Source: Flavobacteriaceae bacterium (GTDB lineage: Bacteria > Bacteroidota > Bacteroidia > Flavobacteriales > Flavobacteriaceae). Taken from it: DNA of 34,268 nt. Under the pieces are notes generated by a model that saw only the letters and a list, made by a program, of their open reading frames with translations, had not been told where the DNA came from and did no database searches. The position numbers were made by a program, and so were the translations under genes. Shown here in pieces: positions 14,679-32,798 of this stretch (position 1 is the stretch's first letter; every line of letters starts with the position of its first letter). The stretch is taken from contig JAKITG010000003.1 in the NCBI GenBank assembly GCA_021648195.1, forward strand, positions 1-34,268, in the 5' to 3' direction.

Positions 14679-15899
14679 TTGAACTACAAAGAGACATTAG
14701 ATTGGATGTTTACCAAACTTCCAATGTATCAGCGACAAGGAACTATAGCTTTTAAAAAAGACCTAACCAATATTCTTTCCCTTTCTAAACAACTAGGTTT
14801 TCCTGAAAAAAAGTTCACATCAATTCATGTAGCAGGAACTAATGGAAAAGGTTCTACCAGTCATATGCTTGCTTCAGTTATACAAGAATCGAGTTATAAA
14901 GTAGGTTTATATACCTCTCCTCATTTAAAAGATTTTAGAGAGCGAATCAAAGTAAATGGCGTCTCCATTTCTGAACAAAATGTTATTGATTTTATTAAAA
15001 AAAATAATACTTTTTTAGAGCAACAAAAACTCTCTTTTTTTGAAATGACAGTGGGTATGGCATTTGAATTTTTTGCTAATCAAAAAGTTGATATTGCCAT
15101 TATTGAAGTTGGTTTAGGAGGCAGGCTAGATTCAACCAATATAATTACCCCATTAGTTTCTGTAATTACAAATATAGGCTTAGATCATACTCAGTTTTTA
15201 GGCGAGACTCTACCTGAAATTGCTTTTGAAAAAGCAGGAATTATCAAACCTAATATTCCAGTAGTTATTGGAGAGAAACAAGAAAATATTGTTTCTGTTT
15301 TTAAAAAAATTGCATCAAAAAATAATGCTCCAATTTACTTTGCTTATGAATTGGTTTCAAATAAATATACCTCTGATTTATTAGGAGATTATCAAATAAA
15401 AAATATAAAAACAACTGTACAAACATTACATTTACTTGCTGAAAAAAAATTTAATATTTCTGATAAAGAAATAAGAAATGGCTTAAAAAATATAGTTAAA
15501 AATACAGGGCTGAAAGGTCGGTGGCAGGTGTTAAATAAACACCCAAAAGCTGTATGTGATACAGCGCATAATAAAGAGGGCTTAACCATTGTTATGAATC
15601 AGTTGAAAAATGAAAAATATCAAAATTTACATATTATTTTAGGAGTAGTTAATGATAAGAATTTAGACTCACTTTTATCTTTATTTCCAAAAAATGCTAG
15701 TTATTATTTTTGCAAACCAAATATTCCAAGAGGTTTAAATACTGAAATTTTAAAACAAGAAGCCTCAAAATTCGAGTTATATGGAAAGGTTTTTGATTCT
15801 GTTAACCAAGCTTATCAAAAAGCTTTAAGCCTTGCCAATAATAATGATTTTATCTATATAGGAGGAAGTACATTTGTTGTAGCTGAATTACCGCTATAA
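14679..15899 (+). CDS. folC: Bifunctional folylpolyglutamate synthase / dihydrofolate synthase
   Basis: 406 aa, TTG start; HVAGTNGKGSTSHMLASV P-loop, YTSPHLKDFRERI, GLGGRLDSTN motifs of FolC. Confidence 0.93.
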   Translation: MNYKETLDWMFTKLPMYQRQGTIAFKKDLTNILSLSKQLGFPEKKFTSIHVAGTNGKGSTSHMLASVIQESSYKVGLYTSPHLKDFRERIKVNGVSISEQNVIDFIKKNNTFLEQQKLSFFEMTVGMAFEFFANQKVDIAIIEVGLGGRLDSTNIITPLVSVITNIGLDHTQFLGETLPEIAFEKAGIIKPNIPVVIGEKQENIVSVFKKIASKNNAPIYFAYELVSNKYTSDLLGDYQIKNIKTTVQTLHLLAEKKFNISDKEIRNGLKNIVKNTGLKGRWQVLNKHPKAVCDTAHNKEGLTIVMNQLKNEKYQNLHIILGVVNDKNLDSLLSLFPKNASYYFCKPNIPRGLNTEILKQEASKFELYGKVFDSVNQAYQKALSLANNNDFIYIGGSTFVVAELPL

Positions 15900-24829: not shown

Positions 24830-26143
24830 TTATTCGGCGTTATCTAAAAAGTCTCTAAACTTTTCACTCCATTTATCAAAAATTGATTTTCCAATGGGTT
24901 TGCTAATTTTCTGTTTTGGCTCAAAAACTTCATTTGTCTGACTTTCAGTTTTGCCTTTCTTTTTATCATCTACCAATCCTTTCATTAACAATCCTACTAC
25001 AGTTGCATAAACTGGGCTTGACAACTCTGTATCTGAATTACTTGCCAAATGCTCATTAGGGTATCCAATTCGAGTATCCATACCAGTAATATATTCTACC
25101 AGCTGTTTAATGTGTTTTAATTGGGAGCCTCCTCCTGTTAAAACGATACCTGCAATTAGCTTTTTCTTGGTATCTTCATGTCCGTAATTTTTTATTTCTA
25201 AAAACACTTGCTCAACAATCTCTATAACTCGTGCATGAATTATTTTTGACAAATTTTTAAGTGTAATTTCTTTAGGATCTCTACCTCTTAAACCTGGAAT
25301 TGAAACTATTTCATTGTCTTTATTTTCTCCTGGCCACGCCGAACCAAACTTTGTTTTTAGTAATTCGGCTTGTTTTTCAATAATAGAACATCCTTCCTTA
25401 ATATCTTCTGTAATAACATTTCCTCCAAAAGAAATAACTGCTGTATGTCGAATAATTCCGTTTTTGAATATGGCTAAATCGGTTGTACCACCACCAATAT
25501 CAATTAAGGCTACACCAGCTTCTTTTTCTTCTTGACTTAAAACTGCATCTGAAGAAGCTAGTGGTTCCAAGGTTATGCTCCCTAATTCTAGACCTGCACT
25601 TTTAATACATCTTCCAATATTTCTAATAGATGATACTTGACCAACTACTACATGAAAATTTGCTTCCAATCTACCACCATACATACCAATAGGGGTATTT
25701 ATTTCGGCTTGACCATCAACTTTAAAATCTTGTGGTAAAACATGAATAATTTCTTCACCTGGTAGCATTACTAATTTATAAACTTGATTAACTAGTCTTT
25801 CAATATCTTCTTCATCAATTACTTTTTCAGAATTTTGACGAGTTATATAATCACTATGGTGTAAACTTCTTATATGCTGACCTGCAATACCAACAACAAC
25901 ATTTTTAATTTTTTTATTGGAAGTGTTTTCTGCTTCTTGAACTGCTTCTTGAATAGATTGTATAGTTTGTGTAATATTATTTACAACACCTCTATGTACT
26001 CCTAAACTTTTTGCTTTTCCCGAACCAAGAACTTCTATCTTTCCATAAGCATCTTCTCTTCCAACCATTACTGCTATTTTGGTTGTTCCGATATCTAATC
26101 CAACTGCTATGCTATTTTCTTCCATTATCTTAATATTTTGCAC
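24830..26143 (-). CDS. ftsA: Cell division protein FtsA
   Basis: 437 aa; actin-fold ATPase motifs VGLDIGTTKIAVMVG, ALIDIGGGTTDLAIF, GIVLTGGGSQL; upstream of ftsZ. The start may be the Met at 26125. Confidence 0.97.
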   Translation of the reverse strand: MQNIKIMEENSIAVGLDIGTTKIAVMVGREDAYGKIEVLGSGKAKSLGVHRGVVNNITQTIQSIQEAVQEAENTSNKKIKNVVVGIAGQHIRSLHHSDYITRQNSEKVIDEEDIERLVNQVYKLVMLPGEEIIHVLPQDFKVDGQAEINTPIGMYGGRLEANFHVVVGQVSSIRNIGRCIKSAGLELGSITLEPLASSDAVLSQEEKEAGVALIDIGGGTTDLAIFKNGIIRHTAVISFGGNVITEDIKEGCSIIEKQAELLKTKFGSAWPGENKDNEIVSIPGLRGRDPKEITLKNLSKIIHARVIEIVEQVFLEIKNYGHEDTKKKLIAGIVLTGGGSQLKHIKQLVEYITGMDTRIGYPNEHLASNSDTELSSPVYATVVGLLMKGLVDDKKKGKTESQTNEVFEPKQKISKPIGKSIFDKWSEKFRDFLDNAE

Positions 26144-26861
26144 AAACTACTTGATTCTTAAATTTCAAATTAATTGTTTTATAATTATTTAATGTATTAT
26201 CTGAAATTGATTTTTGATAAAACACTTTTAATTTTTTAATTTTCTCATTTACTTTTTTCAATTTGCCAAAAATTATAATTTGATTTCCCAAACGTGTTTT
26301 TAGTTCAAATTGATTTGTACCTTTATTTTCTATTTGTTTAATTCCAATAATTTGTTTTCGTAAAAAATTATCATTTTTAATTTTATTTGCCAAATAAATT
26401 ATATCGTTACATTTTTCTTTATTTAATTTACTTGATGTTATAGGAACTCTTGCCGAATAATTATTAGACAACGGCATTTTCTTCCCTTGTTTATCATAAT
26501 AATATGATCCTGTGCTATTTGCCACTCGTAGAACTGGTGTTCTTTGTGTGATTAAAGCTCTTAAACTTCCTTTTAATGTTAAAAAAATTTCTGCTTTTTC
26601 AATCATATCATTATTTTGCACAAACCTTTCTAAATTATTCAAATTTAAATTTTCTTTTGATTGGTTTCCCTTAGTATTCAAACTTTGTATTAACAACTTA
26701 TTAACCATTTCATAACTAATAAAAAGGTTATCTCCATTCTTAAAAATAACATCAATATCTTCAATTTTTTTGTTTGCATTTCTATGCGATGCGAATCCGT
26801 ACAGAAAGACAACTGACAAAATGAGCATTAAAAATTTTATATATAAACTGTACTTTTTCAA
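26130..26861 (-). CDS. ftsQ: Cell division protein FtsQ
   Basis: 243 aa; N-terminal TM, POTRA-like region, position between murG and ftsA; sequence typical of Bacteroidota FtsQ. Confidence 0.85.
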   Translation of the reverse strand: MKKYSLYIKFLMLILSVVFLYGFASHRNANKKIEDIDVIFKNGDNLFISYEMVNKLLIQSLNTKGNQSKENLNLNNLERFVQNNDMIEKAEIFLTLKGSLRALITQRTPVLRVANSTGSYYYDKQGKKMPLSNNYSARVPITSSKLNKEKCNDIIYLANKIKNDNFLRKQIIGIKQIENKGTNQFELKTRLGNQIIIFGKLKKVNEKIKKLKVFYQKSISDNTLNNYKTINLKFKNQVVCAKY

Positions 26862-26969
26862 CTACTTATGTCTTTTTTGCTATTTTTTTTAAAAAACTAT
26901 GACAATTTTCAATCAACCCCCTCGTTAATATATTAAATTGCCATAGTCACCTAAAGCATTTAGTATTTT

Positions 26970-28061
26970 TTAATTAATCAATTTTTCAATTTCGTCAACA
27001 ATTTGAATTGTTGCATTTGGCAAAGCCATTTTTTTTATGTTTTTTTTCAAAAGATTTTGTTTTTCCCCATCATTAATTAAATCATCCAAAATTTCTTGAA
27101 ATTTTTCTAATTCATTTTCTTTTATCATTATTGCTGCATGATGTTTTGTAACCGCCAAAGCATTTTTTGTTTGATGATCTTCTGCAACGTTTGGGGAAGG
27201 AATAAAAATTACTGGTTTTCCAACAATACATAATTCTGATATTGACCCTGCTCCTGCTCTACTAATAATAATATCTGCAGCGGCATAAAGCAAATCCATT
27301 TTTTTAACAAAAGAATGAACTTGAACTTCTTCTATTTCATTATATTTTTTATAATCTTCATAATACAATTTGCCCGATTGCCATATTACCTGCACATTAT
27401 TTGCTAAAATATTTTCTATATTTTTTTCAATCGTTTGATTGATAACTCTTGCTCCCAAACTTCCACCAAGAACTACTAATGTTTTTTTATTCTCATTGAG
27501 TTTATAAAATTGAATTCCTTCTTTTTTTTTGTTAGATGTTTCTAATAAATCTTGTCGAACAGGGTTTCCTGTTTTGATAATTTTCTCTTTTGGGAAAAAT
27601 TTTTCTAAACCATCATAAGCAACACATATTTTTCCTGCTTTCTTAGCTAATAATTTATTGGTAATTCCAGGAAAAGAATTTTGCTCTTGAATTAAGCTAG
27701 GAATCTGTTTTTTATTTGCCATAAACAAAGTTGGACCAGAGGCAAAACCACCTGTACCAATCACCACATTGGGTTGAAATTTTTTAATTATTTTTTTTGC
27801 TCTATACAAACTCTGTATTAATTTAAATGGAAACATTAAGTTTTTAATTGATAAACTTCTTTGTATTCCCGTAATATTTAATCCTTTAATTTTATATCCT
27901 GCTTGTGGTACTTTTTCCATTTCCATTCTATCACTTGCTCCAACAAATAGAAATTTCGCATTGGGATGTCTATTTTTCAATTCATTTGCTATTGCAATTG
28001 CTGGATAAATGTGACCTCCTGTACCTCCGCCACTTAATAATATGTTTAGTTGTTTTCTGAT
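26970..28061 (-). CDS. murG: UDP-N-acetylglucosamine--N-acetylmuramyl-(pentapeptide) pyrophosphoryl-undecaprenol GlcNAc transferase; 5' end uncertain
   Basis: The ORF track starts at 27980 ([10 protein letters not shown]), but the frame continues upstream with [26 protein letters not shown], the essential MurG N-terminus, to a stop at 28065-28067, with no ATG/GTG/TTG in between. End coordinate is the candidate ATC codon. Body motifs [32 protein letters not shown]. Confidence 0.88.
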
Positions 28062-28298
28062 TGTTTAACTGTTTATTTGTTTAATCGTTTATTTGGTTTC
28101 TGGTATCTCACTTCTCTATTCTTTTCTCTATTTTCTCCTTCCAATTTCACACTTTTAACTTTTTATTCGTTTAATTGTTATTGGTTTATTTCCAACCATT
28201 ACCTTCTAACTTTCAATTTACCTTTCTCTTTTTTCTTTTCCCACTTCACACTTCCCACTTCCAACTTCACACTTCACACTTTTAACTTTTAACTCTTA
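28048..28298. repeat. Low-complexity, strand-asymmetric (pyrimidine-rich on +) degenerate repeat tract between ftsW and murG
   Basis: Repeated variants of CACTTC/TTCACACTTTTAACTTTT and GTTTAATCGTTTATTTG with no credible coding frame. Confidence 0.75.
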
Positions 28299-28300
28299 TA

Positions 28301-29506
28301 TCACCCTATTGCTTCATGTAAAATATCTAATGGGTTATCTAATTCTGCTTTATTTTTTTTAATCAAAACTTCTCCACTAGAGGCGCTTACGCTTAGTACT
28401 ATTCCAATTGCAAAACAGGTCATCCAAATAGAAGTTCCTCCTGTACTAATCAACGGAAGGGGTTGTCCCGTTACTGGAAATAACCCAACTGCAACTGCCA
28501 TATTAATTAGCGCTTGAAATATGATTGGAAATCCAACTCCTAGCACCAATAAGGTACCAAAAATTGTTTCTGTTTTTGTTGCAATTCTAACAATTCTAAA
28601 CAACAACATAAGGTACACTACAATAATTAATACTGCTCCAATAAATCCAAATTCTTCTCCAATAATTGCATAAATAAAGTCAGATGAAGACTGAGGTAAA
28701 AAGTTTTTTTGTACACTTTTACCTGGTCCTTTACCATAAATTTCTCCTGAAGCTATGGCTATTTTTGCTTTTTCTGCCTGATAATTATCTTCAGAATTTC
28801 CAGATATAAAATGTTCTACTCTATTTGACCAAGTATTAATTCTATTATTTTTCATTGCATCTGGAAATGCTTTCACTGTTAAGATAAATAATGCAAGTGC
28901 TAAAACTCCTACGCCTAGTATGATAAATATATTTTTTATAGGATATCCACCTATAAAAACCAATAAGATTACCATAGCAAAAGTAATAGCTGTAGTTGAA
29001 AAATTTGCTGGTAAAATAAATATTAAAACCATTCCTACAGGCAACCACAACTGTAATAAGCTTTCTTTAAAATTGATTTTTTTTTCTTTTTTTCTAGCTA
29101 GATAACGAGAAACATACATCATTAAAACAACCGATGCTAATGTTGAGGTTTGAAAACCTACACCAACAAACGGAATTTGAATCCACCTACTTGCATTGGC
29201 ACCACCTATTACTGTACCTTGTGTAAGCGTAAAAATTAATAACAGAATCACTACAGGAATCATTAACACAGATAATCCGCTAAAATATCTATACGGAATT
29301 TTATGTGTAGCAAAAACGATAACAAAACCAAGCAATAGTAGTACAGCGTGCTTAAGCAAATAACCCATTGTAGTACCTTTTCCGGCAACATACACTAGGT
29401 TAGTGCTTGCGCTATATACAGGAAGAAAGGAAAAAATAGCCAATACTGCTATAATTGCCCAAATGGTTTTGTCTCCTTTTATATTTTGCAAAAAATCCGT
29501 CATCAA
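28301..29506 (-). CDS. ftsW: Lipid II polymerase / cell division protein FtsW
   Basis: 401 aa, SEDS-family polytopic protein; GPGKSVQKNFLPQSSSDFIYAIIGEEFG and LPLISTGGTS motifs. Confidence 0.95.
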   Translation of the reverse strand: MMTDFLQNIKGDKTIWAIIAVLAIFSFLPVYSASTNLVYVAGKGTTMGYLLKHAVLLLLGFVIVFATHKIPYRYFSGLSVLMIPVVILLLIFTLTQGTVIGGANASRWIQIPFVGVGFQTSTLASVVLMMYVSRYLARKKEKKINFKESLLQLWLPVGMVLIFILPANFSTTAITFAMVILLVFIGGYPIKNIFIILGVGVLALALFILTVKAFPDAMKNNRINTWSNRVEHFISGNSEDNYQAEKAKIAIASGEIYGKGPGKSVQKNFLPQSSSDFIYAIIGEEFGFIGAVLIIVVYLMLLFRIVRIATKTETIFGTLLVLGVGFPIIFQALINMAVAVGLFPVTGQPLPLISTGGTSIWMTCFAIGIVLSVSASSGEVLIKKNKAELDNPLDILHEAIG

Positions 29507-29524
29507 TAATTCGTATAATAAATT

Positions 29525-30073
29525 TTACAGTTGTCTTACAGCTTCTTTAAATTGCTTACCTCTATCTTCATAATTTTTAAATAAATCATAACTTGCGCAA
29601 GCAGGTGAGAACAAAACAGATTCACCGTCTTCGGTTAATCTATATGCAATGCTAACTGCTTCTTCTATATTAATTGTTTCAATCATAAATTCAACAATAT
29701 TTCCAAATACATCTATTATCTTTTGGTTGTTATAACCCAAGCATATAATTGCTTTTACTTTTTCATTTACCAATGGCAATAATTGCTCATAATCATTTCC
29801 TTTATCAACACCACCTAAGATCCATACTGTTGAAGTTTTAATTCCATCTAAAGCATAATGTGTTGCATTTACATTTACAGATTTTGAATCATTAATATAC
29901 TGTACACCGTTTATTCGAAGTACATTTTCTATTCGATGTTCTTCATTTTCAAAATCACATAAACTTTCTCTTATACTTTCTTTGCGCACTTTTATCAAAT
30001 CTGATAAAGTACTTGATGCCATAGCATTTTTAGTATTAAAATTGGTTTGTGGAGCAAAAGCTGAAATACTCAT
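29525..30073 (-). CDS. murD: Truncated UDP-N-acetylmuramoylalanine--D-glutamate ligase: C-terminal ligase domain only
   Basis: 182 aa; matches only the MurD C-terminus (FNTKNAMASS...EEHRIENVLRINGVQYINDSKSVNVNATHYALDGI...WILGGVDKGNDY...SPACASYDLFKNYEDRGKQFKEAV). ATG directly follows an in-frame TAA; only 22 bp separate it from mraY. Confidence 0.85.
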   Translation of the reverse strand: MSISAFAPQTNFNTKNAMASSTLSDLIKVRKESIRESLCDFENEEHRIENVLRINGVQYINDSKSVNVNATHYALDGIKTSTVWILGGVDKGNDYEQLLPLVNEKVKAIICLGYNNQKIIDVFGNIVEFMIETINIEEAVSIAYRLTEDGESVLFSPACASYDLFKNYEDRGKQFKEAVRQL

Positions 30074-30095: not shown

Positions 30096-31328
30096 TTATC
30101 TTACTTTTAATGTTAATATGGACAATACGGCTAGTAAAATCGAGACAATCCAAAATCTAGTTACTATTTTACTTTCGTGATATCCTTTTTTTTGATAATG
30201 ATGATGTAATGGCGACATTAAAAATATTCGTCTTCCTTCACCATATTTTTTCCTTGTATATTTAAAATATGACACTTGTAATATTACGGAGAGGTTTTCT
30301 GCTAAAAAGATTCCTGCTAAAATTGGAATCAATAATTCTTTACGCACCGCTATGGCTAAAACTGCAATTATTCCACCAATGGTTAAACTTCCAGTATCTC
30401 CCATAAAGACTTGAGCTGGGTATGTATTGTACCATAAAAACCCTACCAATCCACCTACAAAAGCACTAATAAAGATGGTCATCTCACCCGAATTTGGGAT
30501 ATACATTACATTTAAGTAATTAGCAAAAACTATATTACCTGAAACCCAAGCAAAAACAGCAAGTGCCATTACAATTATAGCCGAAGTTCCAGCTGCCAGT
30601 CCATCGATACCATCAGTTAAATTTGCTCCATTTGAAACAGCAGTTATAATAAATATCACTACCAAAACAAATACTAACCATACATAATCATTGGCTTTTT
30701 CTCCCATCCAACCTAATAAACTTGCATAATCAAATTCGTTATTCTTAACAAATGGAATTGTGGTTTTGGTTGATTTATGAGCTTCGCCAAAATTACTAGA
30801 AGGATTCGTTTGATTTAAAGTTTGTGAGATTTGATTTGTAAGGATTTTTTCTTTTACTACTACATCAGGATTAAAATACAACATCAATCCAACAAATATT
30901 CCCAAAGTAACTTGACCAATTATTTTAAACCTACCCTTTAAGCCATCTTTATTTTTTTTAAATACTTTTATATAATCATCTATAAATCCTATTGTTCCCG
31001 TCCAAAGGGTTGTAACAATTAGAATAATGATATAAATATTCTCTAATTTTGCAAATATTAATACGGGAATGATTGTTGCTAAAATGATAATAATCCCTCC
31101 CATTGTTGGAGTTCCTGTTTTCTCTTTTTGCCCTTCTAAACCTAAATCTCTAACCGACTCTCCTACTTGTAATTTTCTTAATTTATCTATAATTTTTCTT
31201 CCAAAAATTGTTGAAATCAATAAAGAAAATGCGAATGCTAATGCAGATCTAAATGAGATATACTTAAACAAACCTGCTCCTGACAGATTATAATGTGTAT
31301 CCAAATATTCAAATAAATAGTATAGCAT
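30096..31328 (-). CDS. mraY: Phospho-N-acetylmuramoyl-pentapeptide-transferase
   Basis: 410 aa; [51 protein letters not shown] motifs. Confidence 0.97.
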
Positions 31329-31334
31329 TTTTAA

Positions 31335-32798
31335 TTATTTATTTAGTTCTTTTAGTGTTTCATTTACTATTTTAAAATCATCAAAATCAGACCTTACGTC
31401 TCCAATAATTTGATAAGTTTCGTGACCTTTTCCTGCAATCAAAATAATATCACCTGTATTTGCCAATTTGCATGCGGTTTTAATTGCTTGTTTTCTATCG
31501 GCAATAGAAATTGTTTTTTTATAGTTTTCGGGAGTCACACCTTCTTCAATATCTTTAATAATTAAATCGGGGTTTTCACTTCGTGGATTATCTGAGGTAA
31601 AAACTACTTGATTACTCAAAGTAGAAGCTATATTTCCCATTTTTGGGCGTTTTGTTTTATCACGATCTCCACCACAGCCTACCACGGTTATTACTTGCTC
31701 ATTATATGTGCGAATGGTATTGATTGTTTCTAAAACATTTTTTAGCGCATCTGGTGTGTGTGCATAATCCACTATAGAATTAATTCCACTTGTCGAGACT
31801 GCATGCTGAAATCTTCCATCTACATTTTCTAACTCACTAATTATTCGTAAAATTTCTAGTTTTTCAAGCCCTAATAAATCAGACACTCCATAAATTGCAA
31901 GTAAATTATAGGCATTAAAAGATCCTATCAGTTTAACCCACAATTCTTGGTTATCGATATTTAGCAACAAACCATTAAATTGATTTTCTAAGATTTTCAA
32001 CTTATAATCAGCAATAGTTTTTAATGCATAAGTATATTTTTTTGCTAATGTATTTTGCAACATGATTGTTCCATTTTTATCATCAATATTTACCAAAGCA
32101 AATGCTGTTTTAGGTAAATTATCAAAAAAGGATTTTTTCACATCTCTGTATTCTGCAAAAGATTTATGGTAATCTAAATGGTCGTGTGTAAGATTCGTAA
32201 AAACTCCACCTTCAAAATACAACCCTGCAGTTCGTTTTTGATCAATACCATGAGAACTTACTTCCATAAAGCAGAATTCAACTTCAGCTAAAACCATTTT
32301 ATGTAACGTTTCATTTATAGTTACTGAATCTGGAGTTGTATGAGTTGTGGCTTGTTCAAGTTCATCAATCATAATTTTTATAGTCGATAACAATCCAACT
32401 TTATAATTGGCTTTTTTAAATAGCTTATATAATAAGGTAGCGATAGTTGTTTTTCCATTAGTTCCTGTTACACCAACTAATTTTAATTTTTCGGAAGGAT
32501 TGTCATAAAAATTAGCAGCTATAATTGCTAAAGCCTCATCGCAATTAGCAACTTGAACATAAGTAATGTTAGGTTGAATTTCTTTAGGGAACTGTTCACA
32601 AACAATTACTACAGCACCACTTTCAATAGCTTTATTAACAAATTTATTACCGTCAAAAATCAAACCTTTTTGTGCTATAAATAATGAATTCAATTTTACT
32701 TTACGTGAATCAAATACAACTGATTTTATCTCAATATTAGTATCACCAAGAATAGATTCAATAGCAACTTTATATAGTATGTCTTTTAAATTTTTCAA
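31335..32798 (-). CDS. murE: UDP-N-acetylmuramoyl-tripeptide synthetase (meso-diaminopimelate type)
   Basis: 487 aa; VGVTGTNGKTT P-loop, TTPDS, EVSSHGIDQ, and the DNPR motif (FTSDNPRSENPD) associated with meso-DAP specificity. Confidence 0.96.
   Translation of the reverse strand: MKNLKDILYKVAIESILGDTNIEIKSVVFDSRKVKLNSLFIAQKGLIFDGNKFVNKAIESGAVVIVCEQFPKEIQPNITYVQVANCDEALAIIAANFYDNPSEKLKLVGVTGTNGKTTIATLLYKLFKKANYKVGLLSTIKIMIDELEQATTHTTPDSVTINETLHKMVLAEVEFCFMEVSSHGIDQKRTAGLYFEGGVFTNLTHDHLDYHKSFAEYRDVKKSFFDNLPKTAFALVNIDDKNGTIMLQNTLAKKYTYALKTIADYKLKILENQFNGLLLNIDNQELWVKLIGSFNAYNLLAIYGVSDLLGLEKLEILRIISELENVDGRFQHAVSTSGINSIVDYAHTPDALKNVLETINTIRTYNEQVITVVGCGGDRDKTKRPKMGNIASTLSNQVVFTSDNPRSENPDLIIKDIEEGVTPENYKKTISIADRKQAIKTACKLANTGDIILIAGKGHETYQIIGDVRSDFDDFKIVNETLKELNK

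Follow-up and report, generated by a model that had tools for sequence, protein, structure and literature searches.

Genus-wide loss of MurC and of most of MurD in Flavobacteriaceae, with a possible peptide-first entry into peptidoglycan synthesis

How might a bacterium start its cell wall when the gene cluster expected to encode MurC and MurD holds no murC and only part of murD? MurC and MurD are usually seen as indispensable in walled bacteria, and both are drug targets. The question is raised by a 34,268-nucleotide stretch of Flavobacteriaceae DNA (hereafter the window), which is one whole contig (C210) of a 2.04 Mb assembly with 215 contigs and 71% completeness. On its minus strand, the genes run in the order ftsI (cut)-murE-mraY-murD remnant-ftsW-murG-ftsQ-ftsA-ftsZ (Table 1).

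Table 1. Positions of the features discussed within the window
Feature	Position	Strand	Remarks
murG-ftsQ gap	26862..26969	-	place of murC in sister genera; genus-wide hairpin element inside; covariance model hit 26972-26878
predicted hairpin	26896..26947	-	ACTATGGCAATT...GAGGGGG...AATTGTCATAGT; outer stem is the palindrome noted earlier
murD remnant (MurDc, 182 aa)	29525..30073	-	C-terminal domain only; start is the former G-x-H-N-x-x-N motif
murG	26970..28056	-	frame open from about 28056; standard start codon absent in this assembly
ftsQ	26130..26861	-	directly downstream of hairpin; start codon TTG at 26861
ftsW	28301..29506	-	
mraY	30096..31328	-	intact
murE	31335..32798	-	intact; exceeds curated cut-off; genus-specific residue change: none seen
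folC	14679..15899	+	the window's other Mur-superfamily ligase; not a cell-wall gene

Absence of murC and truncation of murD across the genus

A sequence-only reading of the window had claimed that 108 bp of gene-free DNA separate the murG stop from the ftsQ start and that no MurC can be read in them. Both claims were borne out: with murG ending at 26970 and ftsQ starting at 26861 on the minus strand, positions 26862-26969 hold no gene, and tblastn with four MurC proteins from sister genera matched nothing there, its only matches in the window being MurE, FolC and chance-level ones. The truncation of murD was likewise confirmed, its 182-aa product covering residues 263-444 when aligned with a sister MurD of 444 aa. 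The same reading took the rest of the cluster for complete, with murE, mraY, ftsI and ftsW looking intact. This is correct for murE and mraY, but ftsI is cut down by the contig end to its last 484 codons, and no ATG, GTG or TTG precedes the GGGTGGH motif in the murG frame. Between ftsW and murG lies a purine-rich, repeat-like stretch of about 245 bp (GTGTGAAGTTGGAAGTGGGAAG; 28056-28300, minus strand) that displaces the start, hence the missing codon; in other members of the genus, unlike in the window, the two genes overlap. Either murG uses a non-standard start codon here or the assembly is at fault.

MurC was found in none of 22 genus genomes at the TIGR01082 cut-off of 335.1 bits, the Mpl-like protein of these genomes scoring about 217-241 bits; the set includes G012 (one contig, 100% complete) and G014 and G004 (99-100%). 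Among 18 other relatives, 17 encode a MurC above the cut-off (3/3 other genera of the family and 14/15 members of other families). Throughout the genus, the gene order is the same and the murG-ftsQ gap is short and non-coding, mostly 85-166 bp (78 bp in G010); one gap, in G006, seems longer because the murG frame is broken there. In the sister genera compared, murC sits between murG and ftsQ, overlapping or nearly overlapping both, and in the proposed synteny check all three sister genera examined keep murG-murC-ftsQ together with a 444-aa MurD. The murD gene measures 180-183 codons in the genus versus 444-449 in the sisters compared, a single call of 209 codons (G008) being due to an upstream in-frame start. 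Four public bins (CSMAG_2938, CSMAG_2614, CSMAG_104 and GMC9) show the same murC/murD state.

The incompleteness and fragmentation of the window's own assembly could point to an assembly or binning artefact of a metagenome bin, but the same junctions recur in about 20 separate genus genomes, some of them complete, together with a conserved hairpin in the gap; we regard this explanation as ruled out, with next to no probability left to it. A transfer or fusion of murC and murD to another place in the genome is conceivable, as mur fusions exist, for example MurB-MurC in Verrucomicrobium (PMC4803751). The Mur ligase middle domain (PF08245), however, occurs in complete G012 and G014 in exactly four proteins, namely MurE, MurF, FolC and a 450-aa Mpl-like protein, and the whole-genome searches of complete members with this domain and TIGR01082 returned no intact murC elsewhere. 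Relocation, named beforehand as the alternative for murC, is thereby ruled out in complete members unless the gene is unrecognisable, and keeps only a very slight probability. An additional Mur-type ligase such as MurD2 was not detected by the PF08245 search of complete members either.

On the evidence of these genomes, the loss is neither an assembly fault nor a one-genome event: the genus ancestor appears to have lost MurC and, from MurD, the N-terminal and ATP-binding domains, and the loss is found throughout the genus. Two Mur ligases had been called damaged or missing. The absence of murC and the truncation of murD in an otherwise kept cluster do hold, but "damaged" does not fit a state that is genus-wide, with a murD remnant under purifying selection and a gap that contains a conserved hairpin. 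Nothing points to peptidoglycan loss in the genus, where MurE, MurF, MraY, MurG, FtsW, MurI and Ddl were all found. We found no report of such a murC/murD loss in the openly accessible literature.

Full-length MurD is present in 386 of 397 Flavobacteriales genomes (all at least 90% complete except the window's own) and in 384 of 393 Bacteroidota genomes. The Flavobacteriales without it include the window genome, three genomes of a second family (f9), one of family f7 (G261) and, from f16, genomes so small (about 300 kb) that they look like endosymbionts. Among other Bacteroidota, G565, G491, G700 and G753 are at least 97% complete and lack full MurD (G565, 5.4 Mb, has an epimerase); these could be further independent losses. 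The f9 genomes are small (1.7 Mb). In one of them, G032, the cluster reads murE-mraY-ftsW-murG-ftsQ, murC and murD having left no trace, and an Mpl-like protein, MurE, MurF and Ddl are retained; MurI was found in 0/3 f9 genomes. As the genus and f9 belong to different families with intact relatives, their losses are best read as two independent events.

The hairpin in the gap and the retained MurD domain

The near-palindrome previously noted in the gap lies at the positions given for it and turned out to be the stem of a hairpin shared across the genus. As RNA, the gap of the window folds at -23.2 kcal/mol (z -4.9; 0/200 shuffles as good), and gap sequences taken singly outdo their shuffles in folding by 3.5 to 5.5 s.d. 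In nearly all genus genomes, the motif TGCTAAATACTTTG lies just upstream of ftsQ, followed by the hairpin ACTATGGCAA-...-GAGGGGATT-...-TTGYCATAGT and a T run; the upstream motif has diverged in G010, G011, G008 and the window. Over 19 sequences, pairing in the 14-pair stem amounts to 95.9%, with six pairs changed on both sides, which 0/500 shuffles reach, and sliding the partner strand destroys the pairing signal. The lower stem is nearly invariant, and compensatory changes lie in the upper stem. A covariance model run over 1.0 Mb, including sister mur clusters, matched the window and the gaps of G021 and G005, the latter at E 2e-11 despite lying outside the model-building set; its one further match was weak, an echo of the G005 hairpin on the opposite strand. 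Searching Rfam (4227 families) yielded only chance snoRNA matches far under the gathering scores.

Such conservation rules out the gap as a mere scar. In most species, the long stem is followed by TTTT to TTTTTT; its base is A+T-rich, and a pattern scan gave no terminator call. We read the hairpin as an ftsQAZ control element gained with the loss of murC, serving as a terminator, as a hairpin of the 5' leader or as both, and speculate that it would act on the transcription or the mRNA of ftsQ-ftsA-ftsZ. An extra terminator-like hairpin of the AAGGCCTT type lies between murG and the conserved element in G006 (L184), G017 (L190) and G021 (L192), where it may interrupt transcription on the way from murG to ftsQ.

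The murD remnant, MurDc, varies little in length or sequence among genus members, with a strongly kept fold core and a strongly conserved new N-terminus (MSISxFAxQTNFNxKNAMAS). Against TIGR01087 it scores 173.7 bits, below the cut-off of 211.95, and covers only positions 273-441 of the 441-position profile; of the three Pfam domains of MurD, it contains Mur_ligase_C alone. The AlphaFold model has a pLDDT of 80 and is weak in the first 45 residues, and the 33 best PDB matches in a fold search are all MurD (7ti7, E 3.9e-15). Weaker matches in this search include chains of the plastid polymerase. Between close pairs, dN/dS is 0.03-0.12 (0.23 in one pair), and these low values, in the range of murE and murG, mark it as a working gene under strong purifying selection. 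The equivalents of the D-Glu-binding residues K319, T321, K348, S415 and F422 (E. coli MurD numbering) have been lost from many members, the complete G012 and G014 among them: K348 is kept in 8/19, S415 and F422 in 10/19 each and T321 in 2/19 members. The HR and ND residues, which contact ATP in MurD, stay conserved. Because purifying selection persists while the D-Glu site has decayed in many species, MurDc can be taken as a retained, non-enzymatic protein rather than a ligase, a clean example of an enzyme domain that outlasted its catalytic half. Our guess is that it probably serves as a structural, scaffold or partner protein in a Mur/Fts assembly.

The Mpl-like ligase and the source of the peptide

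Following the suggestion to look for an Mpl-type ligase, we found an Mpl-like protein in 19 of the 22 genus members, the three without it being incomplete assemblies (67-84%). This protein is paralogous to MurC and has all three domains of the ligase architecture. It scores 165-187 bits against the Mpl model, below the cut-off (TIGR01081, 388.7), and one representative reaches 239 bits against the MurC model (cut-off 335.1) versus 165 bits against Mpl. Where classical Mpl has EPRSNT, its meso-A2pm motif (PMC3060825), the proteins of the genus, f9 and the sisters read ELHTYSSLN or ELHTYSSFN; the MurC motif HRxSRT is absent as well, with HTYSS as its counterpart. Conservation equals that of MurE, sister genera still having MurC carry a near-identical copy, and only one residue change is genus-specific. 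Since the same protein occurs in sister genera and is conserved like MurE, its function is presumably older than the loss. Judged by its sequence, the Bacteroidota Mpl-like ligase looks like an unnamed subfamily. Its copies at L145 9541-10908, L092 9910-11262 and L104 9625-11034 fall below both the MurC and the Mpl cut-off and have their own motif.

Because MurE and MurF need UDP-MurNAc-dipeptide and -tripeptide, respectively, and FolC is a folate enzyme, the Mpl-like protein would, by elimination, be the sole Mur-family enzyme left to load UDP-MurNAc. With no ligase left for D-Glu, the simplest account is that it joins a preformed D-Glu-containing peptide, most likely L-Ala-D-Glu or else a tripeptide, to UDP-MurNAc, after which MurE and then MurF would act as usual. 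That MurE carries no change peculiar to the genus agrees with UDP-MurNAc-L-Ala-D-Glu being the compound it normally acts on. Psychrobacter Mpl turns over 260/min on tripeptide, 1.4/min on L-Ala-D-Glu and 0.7/min on L-Ala (PMC3060825), side activities that would make a shift to dipeptide chemically modest. If true, this bypass would give a role to the uncharacterised Mpl-like ligase of Bacteroidota. The neighbourhoods of mpl, murF and the epimerase gene offered no candidate for a replacement gene.

The dipeptide could, speculatively, come from L-Ala-L-Glu via a dipeptide epimerase. An enzyme of the 3IJI/YcjG kind is encoded in 20 of the 22 genus members, including the window genome (G000:C92), in 2/3 f9 genomes and in MurD-less G565. 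The catalytic KIKLG, DAN, EQP, ADES and KLxKCGG-type motifs are intact in the 13 main-type genus sequences, and 3iji is the best-matching relative of known structure (E 2e-58, spanning 334 residues); scores against NF011708 (125-154 bits) lie below its cut-off of 343 bits. An epimerase is also present in 32 of 52 MurD-positive relatives, which weakens its use as a diagnostic marker of the loss; the genus is enriched at a Fisher p of about 0.01, not corrected for kinship. In G002 (L231 1691-2746) and G011 (L230 4639-5682), the usual epimerase was not found; both genomes carry instead an epimerase 32-33% identical to it, whose neighbours are a lipoprotein-like gene and a predicted zinc carboxypeptidase. 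This divergent form hints that the function is needed. A BioF/Kbl-like PLP enzyme directly adjoins the epimerase at L142 12262-13290 (G000:C92), L180 8623-9666 (G022) and L239 8418-9452 (G003).

An ATP-grasp_4 search found no dipeptide ligase. Nor did an ATP-grasp protein of the L-amino-acid-ligase type emerge as common to both losing lineages, the shared matches being Ddl-sized and, where checked (G012 and G032), Ddl. MurI is intact in the genus, which argues for the use of free D-Glu somewhere. In f9, the epimerase has an export-type N-terminus and adjoins an NlpC/P60 hydrolase; the two form a recycling cassette, and f9 may for this reason scavenge peptide.

Competing explanations and known systems

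Taken as a whole, loss of murC and murD in the genus ancestor with the Mpl-like protein joining a preformed D-Glu-containing peptide is our best explanation, to which we give an even chance. The more specific proposal of a "peptide-first" pathway, in which free L-Ala-D-Glu peptide and the Mpl-like ligase replace MurC and MurD in the genus and, independently, in a second family, with MurDc kept as a non-enzymatic protein, is put forward tentatively, as somewhat short of even. Against the main reading stand the near-identity of the Mpl-like protein in MurC-bearing sisters and its lack of both EPRSNT and HRxSRT, the retention of MurI, needless in a pure epimerase route, the position of the f9 epimerase in a recycling cassette, the limited diagnostic value of the epimerase and the failure of the ATP-grasp_4 search to turn up a dipeptide ligase. 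The Mpl-like protein could instead have taken over the addition of L-Ala from MurC, with an unrelated, unrecognised ligase adding D-Glu made by the retained MurI. The higher score against MurC than against Mpl fits this idea, but it requires a further, so far unseen ligase that does not belong to the Mur superfamily, the HRxSRT residues are absent from the HTYSS motif, and f9, which also lacks MurI, fits poorly; we consider it unlikely. Quite unlikely, too, is auxotrophy, that is, L-Ala-D-Glu or tripeptide scavenged from the peptidoglycan of others and attached by the Mpl-like ligase. The small genomes of f9, its lack of MurI and its export-type epimerase beside the hydrolase speak for it, as would the sediment-type habitats suggested by some relatives' names, which are probably rich in cell debris; yet genus genomes reach 4 Mb without general reduction and keep MurI, and recycling of a cell's own wall cannot sustain net growth. 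A split ligase, in which MurDc supplies the D-Glu-binding half and another Mur ligase lends its N-terminal and ATP domains, would account for the purifying selection and the conserved HR and ND residues. However, the D-Glu site is variable, its residues being lost even in complete members, and MurDc is absent from f9; we dropped this improbable half-enzyme.

If the main reading is right, an apparently free-living genus with ordinary-sized genomes and neither enzyme would show a natural bypass of the first two steps. The stepwise MurC/MurD route has the same start, UDP-MurNAc, and the same later enzymes (MurE, MurF, MraY and MurG); the genus differs in lacking both MurC and MurD as enzymes. In Xanthomonas, L-Glu is epimerised after ligation by the MurD2/MurL route, which uses MurC and the Mur-family MurD2; D-Glu addition is bypassed there too, but with an extra Mur ligase not found here. 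The PAP11/MurE-like protein of the plastid RNA polymerase is related to the Mur ligases and retained as a structural component; it offers an analogy to MurDc only, as Mur family and partner differ. Chlamydia, unlike the genus, retains MurD and a MurC fused to Ddl. Its D-Glu comes from DapF acting as a racemase, according to work cited in PMC9928106, an unusual supply of the kind that f9 would need. The epimerases YcjG, YkfB and B. thetaiotaomicron 3IJI have catalytic motifs in common with the genus enzyme; their known role is recycling or catabolism, whereas a biosynthetic role in the genus is only proposed. In the Mpl recycling route of E. coli and Psychrobacter arcticus, a MurC-like ligase joins free peptide to UDP-MurNAc. 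The Bacteroidota protein differs from classical Mpl in lacking EPRSNT and scoring under the Mpl cut-off, and where Mpl supplements MurC and MurD in those species, the Mpl-like ligase would be the only entry here.
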